Below, one piece after another: positions 26,824 to 26,991 of a stretch of DNA of 31,344 nt. Numbering within the stretch: position 1 is the stretch's first letter; each line of letters starts with the position of its first letter. Source of the stretch: a virus; IMG/VR virus record IMGVR_UViG_3300046328_000215, positions 1-31,344 of that record. One strand, 5' to 3'. A program made the translations under genes and the position numbers. The notes under the pieces were generated by a model. It did not search any database, was not told where the DNA came from, and worked only from the letters and a program-made list of their open reading frames with translations.

Positions 26824-26991
26824 TCAACCTTCGCCGTCGCCGTCGCCGTCGCCGTCGCCGTAGCCGGAGCCGTCGCCGGAGCCGGAGCCGTCGCCGTAGC
26901 CGTCGCCGTAGCCGGAGCCGGAGCCGTCGCCGTAGCCGTCGCCGGAGCCGTCGCCGTCGCCGTCTGTAAACGTCTTATTTTTTGAAGCCAT
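26824..26991 (-). CDS. Small acidic (D/S/Y)G dipeptide-repeat protein (55 aa)
   Basis: MASKNKTFT is followed by 22 X-Gly dipeptides (X = D, S or Y; for example DGDGDGSGDGYG) and a final EG. AAGGAG lies eight bases before ATG 26991, an excellent ribosome site, and the start overlaps the end of the DUF6948-like gene by 17 bases. Each dipeptide is encoded by a GGC codon alternating with GAC, TCC or TAC. No family or function is known to me; such a chain should be disordered, acidic and flexible. It fills the otherwise empty gap before the FtsK-gamma-like gene. Confidence 0.7.
   Translation of the reverse strand: MASKNKTFTDGDGDGSGDGYGDGSGSGYGDGYGDGSGSGDGSGYGDGDGDGDGEG
26833..26964. repeat. Hexanucleotide-type array GCCGTC/GCCGTA/GCCGGA
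   Basis: 132 bases made of GCC alternating with GTC, GTA or GGA (22 six-base units), read on the reverse strand as the X-Gly repeats. Only the third class of triplets varies. Units of six or multiples can expand or contract without breaking the frame. Confidence 0.9.

Follow-up and report, generated by a model that had tools for sequence, protein, structure and literature searches.

Organization of the X-Gly Locus

The window, i.e., the whole stretch of DNA analyzed here, is a virus record of 31,344 bases. An unannotated gene on its minus strand encodes a protein of 55 amino acid residues, MASKNKTFTDGDGDGSGDGYGDGSGSGYGDGYGDGSGSGDGSGYGDGDGDGDGEG*, with the layout MASKNKTFTDG(XG)nEG (Table 1). 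The protein contains 23 X-Gly units, in which X is Asp, Ser, or Tyr in 22 units and Glu in the last, and TRF reported an array of 6-nt period at positions 26831–26964. This run is far beyond chance, since the longest run in 50 shuffles of the window reached only 5 units. The AAGGAG site is spaced from the ATG codon by 7 nt. A preliminary description, which gave no strand, had proposed a translation-ready X-Gly gene in the gap between two genes, with X limited to Asp, Ser, and Tyr. The proper start and stop codons, the AAGGAG site, and 22 units of this kind were confirmed in the sequence, and the residue limit applies to these units and is broken by the final Glu-Gly. The placement in a gap had to be corrected: the first 17 nt of the gene lie within the end of the upstream gene, and the two are therefore an overlapping gene pair rather than genes on either side of a simple gap.

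Table 1. Features of the X-Gly locus and its surroundings (positions in the window).
Feature	Position	Strand	Basis
X-Gly repeat protein gene, 55 aa and stop codon, ATG at 26991	26824..26991	-	Sequence; homologous ORF at the same place in relatives
Hexamer array, 23 units of NNC-GGC type (22 (D/S/Y)G and a final EG)	26827..26964	-	Sequence; TRF period 6
AAGGAG ribosome-binding site, within the upstream gene	26999..27004	-	Sequence; SD-like site in 59/66 relatives
Upstream partner gene, 127 aa, DUF6948, predicted Sm/LSm fold	26975..27358	-	PF22253, E 6e-28; AlphaFold pLDDT 88; PDB matches Sm/LSm
Stand-alone FtsK gamma-type domain, 77 aa	26575..26808	-	PF09397, E 1.4e-11
Pentapeptide-repeat protein gene	25581..26366	-	
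Array of 15-nt period, 28.6 copies, in the pentapeptide-repeat gene	25836..26264		
C5 cytosine methyltransferase gene	27478..28629	-	
Run of nine C (nine G on the coding strand) in the methyltransferase gene	27760..27768		

Family searches with the X-Gly protein gave weak matches only (TrAA12 of Pfam, below the cut-off, and one weak PHROG), and no match was obtained when 9 kb of the window were used for a near-DNA search of a phage collection. The gene downstream, P0003, returned no relatives when used as a search query. Just downstream of the X-Gly gene lies a stand-alone FtsK gamma-type domain, which in the FtsK translocase normally forms the end that reads DNA, and the pentapeptide-repeat protein, encoded two genes downstream, is a second repeat-built protein of the window. 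The methyltransferase gene carries a homopolymer tract; such tracts can slip, switching a gene on or off.

Pairing of the X-Gly Gene With DUF6948

The gene upstream of the X-Gly gene belongs to the DUF6948 family. Eighty viral DUF6948 loci were gathered by protein similarity alone. An X-Gly ORF of the strict alphabet was located directly downstream in 71 of them and one of a wider alphabet in 3 more; 4 other loci reach the contig edge just past the X-Gly start, and 2 stop too early to judge. All 80 viral loci were consistent with the pairing, and no DUF6948 gene lacking a downstream X-Gly ORF was found among them. The N-termini of the X-Gly ORFs at these loci are mostly alike (M-A-S-N-K-x-F and variants). 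The cultured carriers are eight Pectobacterium phages, Vibrio phage IKEMa6-1, Iodobacter phage PhiPLPE, in which the X-Gly position is without an annotated gene, and Chlorobiaceae phage CV-1-33. Three bacterial DUF6948 genes were found in 399 genomes of one order, each with an X-Gly ORF in the same locus (3/3).

When viral contigs were scanned in the reverse direction, for the array DNA alone, at least 93 arrays of the X-Gly type were recovered, 66 of which had enough upstream sequence. Among the matches listed, DUF6948 was found within 900 nt upstream of 41 of these arrays and a divergent relative upstream of 18, together 59 of the 66. The divergent subfamily, searched alone, gave 80 loci, with an X-Gly array no more than 700 nt downstream in 74 of the 78 evaluable ones. 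The profile comparison between the two subfamilies is weak alone; they were linked because 22 of 65 aligned members of the divergent subfamily match PF22253 and because both the predicted fold and the X-Gly partner are shared. DUF6948 and the X-Gly gene form a conserved and widespread two-gene phage module. A pattern scan of bacterial genomes (at least 118 stretches) yielded eight Tyr-containing X-Gly ORFs among the matches listed, none of which adjoined DUF6948. Bacterial proteins with GYGYGYG tails that resemble tyrosine-kinase-type ATPases (genome loci L209, L274, and L286) seem to be a separate use of Tyr-Gly repeats.

In every locus examined except one, the X-Gly ORF is a separate, overlapping gene; the exception, L025, is a natural fusion in which both genes form one open frame with the array at the C-terminus. 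The start codon overlaps the upstream gene in 66 of 66 DUF6948 loci, 5–32 nt before the upstream stop codon, and in most loci of the second subfamily. Fusion of the two genes by a conserved programmed frameshift was also weighed and set aside: relative to the upstream stop codon, all 66 DUF6948 loci have the X-Gly frame in one phase, and 32 of 34 loci in the second subfamily have it in the other. Because the phase differs between the subfamilies, coupling through overlapping starts is the simpler reading.

Arrays were also observed in other protein contexts. In L014, L053, L055, L083, L103, L107, L330, and L332, the array lies on the N-terminal side of a globular domain of ∼140 residues (..IDGVPTII..GNIAKG..WHHxLTGSC..), which had no Pfam match where it was scanned; a similar stretch occurs in an ORF with LRR-like repeats (L019). 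In L036, L076, L113, and L416, the array follows, on the C-terminal side, a small domain that bears a DIIRAGACxxGV motif.

Predicted Fold of the Partner Protein

The AlphaFold2 model of DUF6948, built from 58 sequences, had a mean pLDDT of 88. When it was compared with the PDB by Foldseek, the matches listed were Sm/LSm chains almost throughout (best E 4e-3), and superposition on yeast SmF (VIA) gave a Z of 8.4 and an rmsd of 1.8 over 63 residues. An independent model of the second subfamily (pLDDT 92) again matched Sm/LSm chains almost throughout, with a best Z of 8.8 and an rmsd of 3.1 over 75 residues. The predicted fold is a small, strongly bent antiparallel barrel of five strands, of which strands 3 and 4 are separated by an inserted helix. 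Since two divergent subfamilies, modelled independently, gave the same fold, its assignment to the Sm/LSm class appears fairly safe as a model-based prediction, with structural matches of moderate strength (Z near 8). No sequence profile match of DUF6948 to a solved Sm protein or to any PDB sequence was found, and a G-x(3)-G...D-G...L pattern in strands 2–3 is Sm1-like by eye only.

Arg-x-Trp is invariant in both subfamilies, and a Lys that follows strand 3 is conserved in both. The positions of the conserved Arg, Trp, Lys, and His residues in DUF6948 are compatible with predicted RNA or ssDNA binding and are no proof of it; the net charge of the protein is near 0. DUF6948 would probably form a nucleic-acid-binding ring like that of Hfq.

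Conservation and Composition of the X-Gly Chain

The start and the ribosome site, whose loss in relatives the preliminary description would have counted against its gene, are kept there: 66 loci begin with ATG (61) or GTG (5), and an SD-like 4-mer was present in 59 of them, against 21.8 expected from shuffles. The X codons are mostly TC, TA, or GA followed by the wobble base. Ala codons occurred 22 times in the arrays against 461 expected, although each of their first two bases, G at base 1 and C at base 2, is common. The common codon states are separated by transversions, and transition neighbors such as His, Cys, Pro, and Gly hardly occur. Judged from its sequence, the array is selected as a protein.

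For the polyanion that had been suggested, for example a DNA mimic, net acidity was seen without a fixed acidic content: the X-Gly product has a net negative charge in 141 of 143 complete relatives, with a median of -8, whereas acidic residues make up anything from 3 to 57% of X across arrays, a share that is only loosely kept. The calcium-binding chain that had also been suggested did not hold up as a conserved property, given that Asn replaces Asp in some relatives; the array of L133 contains 15 Asn and no Asp and has a net charge of -1. A calcium-binding repeat of the RTX type was likewise rejected, the nonapeptide GGxGxDxUx being absent from the strictly alternating X-Gly sequence and no RTX family match being found. 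Because the acidic share varies and Asn can replace Asp, what is conserved, as far as the sequences tell, is Gly at every second position combined with an aromatic, polar, and acidic mix, rather than a strict polyanion or calcium chain. Tyr or Phe was present in all arrays counted, with a median of 33% aromatic X, the arrays having been chosen to contain an aromatic residue. The C-terminal tip is enriched in acidic residues in the DUF6948 set (0.188 vs. 0.121 in the body; p 0.0005, the sequences being related) and is not enriched in the second subfamily (0.130 vs. 0.167). Very short arrays, of 8–12 units, also occur.

Hypervariability of the Arrays

The arrays are hypervariable and yet remain in frame. 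The X-Gly genes of the eight Pectobacterium phages range from 162 to 270 nt, and all of their differences are multiples of 6, in agreement with the earlier proposal that a six-base unit permits in-frame length change. Across the 400 bp that precede the gene and the 600 bp that follow it, the phages Ymer, Amona, and Taid show 99.5–100% identity (with 12 gap columns for Taid); despite these flanks their arrays, compared over 30, 27, and 36 units, respectively, are different. The unit edit distances between Ymer and Taid (p 0.32) and between Amona and Taid (p 0.13) were no smaller than those of shuffled arrays, and the arrays of Ymer and Amona, which have a C-terminal block in common, were somewhat closer (p 0.009). 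Two to five tandem X-Gly genes occur in L047, L082, L038, L116, L112, and L144; the five genes of L047 (1693–2972) have identical ends, including silent sites, and different arrays. The speed of this reshuffling, the near-obligate upstream partner, and the predicted Sm fold had all escaped the preliminary description.

Across 149 arrays, the mean heterozygosity within an array was 0.42 at base 1 and 0.41 at base 2 of the unit, against 0.057 at base 3 and 0.062 at base 6, which are silent, so that amino-acid-changing variation is about seven times the silent variation. The silent bases do differ between arrays (pooled heterozygosity 0.43 and 0.29). The order of X is near random, and block duplication (p < 0.05) was detected in 33 of 110 arrays. 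A chain in which order is irrelevant predicts silent differences at least equal to amino acid differences within an array, and the opposite was seen. Either the units reshuffle far faster than point mutations arise, or variety is selected. As to the mutational route, our guess is slippage together with recombination by the annealing proteins of some carriers, e.g., the Erf-like protein of Ymer.

Possible Functions of the Module

Sm-fold proteins often carry disordered tails. The reading that we put first, at somewhat below an even chance, is that a nucleic-acid-binding, Sm-like protein is served by a separately encoded, fast-evolving disordered tail, which clusters the particles and whose units are reshuffled free of order. 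It is favored because the X-Gly chain has the ingredients of an Hfq tail, is encoded behind an Sm-like gene, and is once fused to it C-terminally. The first gene would supply the predicted Sm/LSm protein, probably as a nucleic-acid-binding ring; the second, translationally coupled to it, would supply a disordered chain with Gly at every other position and acidic residues, Ser/Asn, and Tyr/Phe in between. This chain might act as a detachable tail, in physical contact with the ring, its acidic residues occupying the basic surface of the Sm-like protein in competition with RNA or ssDNA and its Tyr/Gly contacts clustering the particles. The order of residues would hardly matter, and the array would thus be free for reshuffling of whole hexamers by slippage and phage recombination. 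Tails with such ingredients have been described for Hfq: the acidic tip of the E. coli tail acts as a nucleic acid mimic that binds to the basic core and aids RNA release (PMC5606850), the Acinetobacter tail consists of GGFGGQ repeats with an acidic tip (PMC11617691), and the Hfq tail is able to form amyloid-like filaments (PMC10590398). The analogy is incomplete, the acidic tip being enriched in the DUF6948 set only and DUF6948 being near neutral. Moreover, irrelevance of order does not by itself explain why silent variation is lower than amino-acid-changing variation, and, arrays also being joined to other globular domains, the use of the chain may be more general.

The excess of amino acid over silent differences within arrays is the reason for keeping a second reading, a counter-defence or anti-recognition chain in which variety itself is selected, the ever-changing chain blocking a host factor or escaping recognition. 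Arrays that differ completely between near-identical flanks and tandem copies with different arrays agree with it, and Asp, Ser, Tyr, and Gly are residues fit for adaptable binding. The tiny alphabet, however, restricts what can be told apart, and reshuffling of pre-existing unit types could yield the same pattern with no selection for variety; we consider this reading unlikely. That the module is a new phage route to protein diversity, i.e., an Sm-like protein with a chain of three or four hexamer units whose in-frame reshuffling outpaces the flanks and whose variety is selected, is possible and on balance doubtful.

Self-assembly of the chain into a condensate or fibre, as a scaffold that does not depend on nucleic acid and with DUF6948 as an anchor or chaperone, would suit the strict (X-Gly)n alternation, the aromatic residues (in arrays selected for containing them), and the likeness to silk and FUS-type repeats. 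It is harder to reconcile with the very short arrays, leaves the Sm fold of the partner unexplained, and seems to us rather improbable. Near-uniformity of bases 3–6 of the unit within each array might suggest a DNA-level element with an incidental ORF, such as protein-binding repeats of a replication or partition site; the scarcity of Ala codons, the retention of start, ribosome site, and frame, and the variation of the uniform bases between arrays (CGGC, TGGC, CGGT) make this very unlikely. A neutral slippage array with no function, for which the ease of hexamer slippage and the block duplications might speak, is the least credible reading, and its plain form stands contradicted by conservation across distant phages: the array is near-universal beside a single gene family, in phages whose hosts are unrelated, with a restricted set of residues and an intact frame.

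Under the tail reading, phages would possess Sm-like proteins of their own, the tails of which are encoded by a separate gene. A neglected low-complexity ORF and a domain of unknown function are joined into one module, which is found in phages of Pectobacterium, Vibrio, Iodobacter, and Chlorobiaceae and in phages from the human gut and many environments. In the Ymer-genus phages the evolution of the array can be measured directly, and more than 100 natural low-complexity chains of a tiny alphabet become available for studying order-independent function.

Comparison With Known Systems

The X-Gly protein and its pair with DUF6948 are outside the described systems in the libraries searched. In a literature search of open-licence papers, DUF6948 was named in none of them and the repeat peptides searched occurred in no biological paper, and earlier notice elsewhere is possible; the parts of the Ymer-genus paper (PMC11445585) reached by key terms hold nothing on an X-Gly gene. 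The module resembles E. coli Hfq (PMC5606850) in combining an Sm core, predicted here, with a net-acidic and probably disordered chain, which in L025 is C-terminal in the same polypeptide; it differs in that the chain is a separate gene, X-Gly throughout, hypervariable, and acidic-tipped in one subfamily only. Acinetobacter Hfq (PMC11617691) likewise bears Gly/aromatic repeats of variable number on an Sm core, but it is bacterial and chromosomal, fused, and built from another repeat unit, with no known fast reshuffling. With archaeal and eukaryotic Sm/LSm proteins, DUF6948 shares the predicted five-strand Sm barrel, whereas it has no detectable sequence match to them and contains a helix between strands 3 and 4.

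Silk fibroin consists of (Gly-X)n with X mainly Ala or Ser, and FUS-type chains of [G/S]Y[G/S]. The X-Gly chain is like them in having Gly at every second position or a richness in Tyr, Gly, and Ser, and unlike silk fibroin in excluding Ala and in the prominence of Asp. No reverse transcriptase of a diversity-generating retroelement was among the families reported for the scanned genes. Like phage diversification systems and contingency repeats, the X-Gly array is a single locus that evolves much faster than the DNA around it; unlike them, it changes by whole hexamers of three or four unit types, in frame, and with no on/off switching. The fold of the partner is of a known kind, and its pairing with a hypervariable X-Gly chain of small alphabet matches none of the described systems in the libraries searched.
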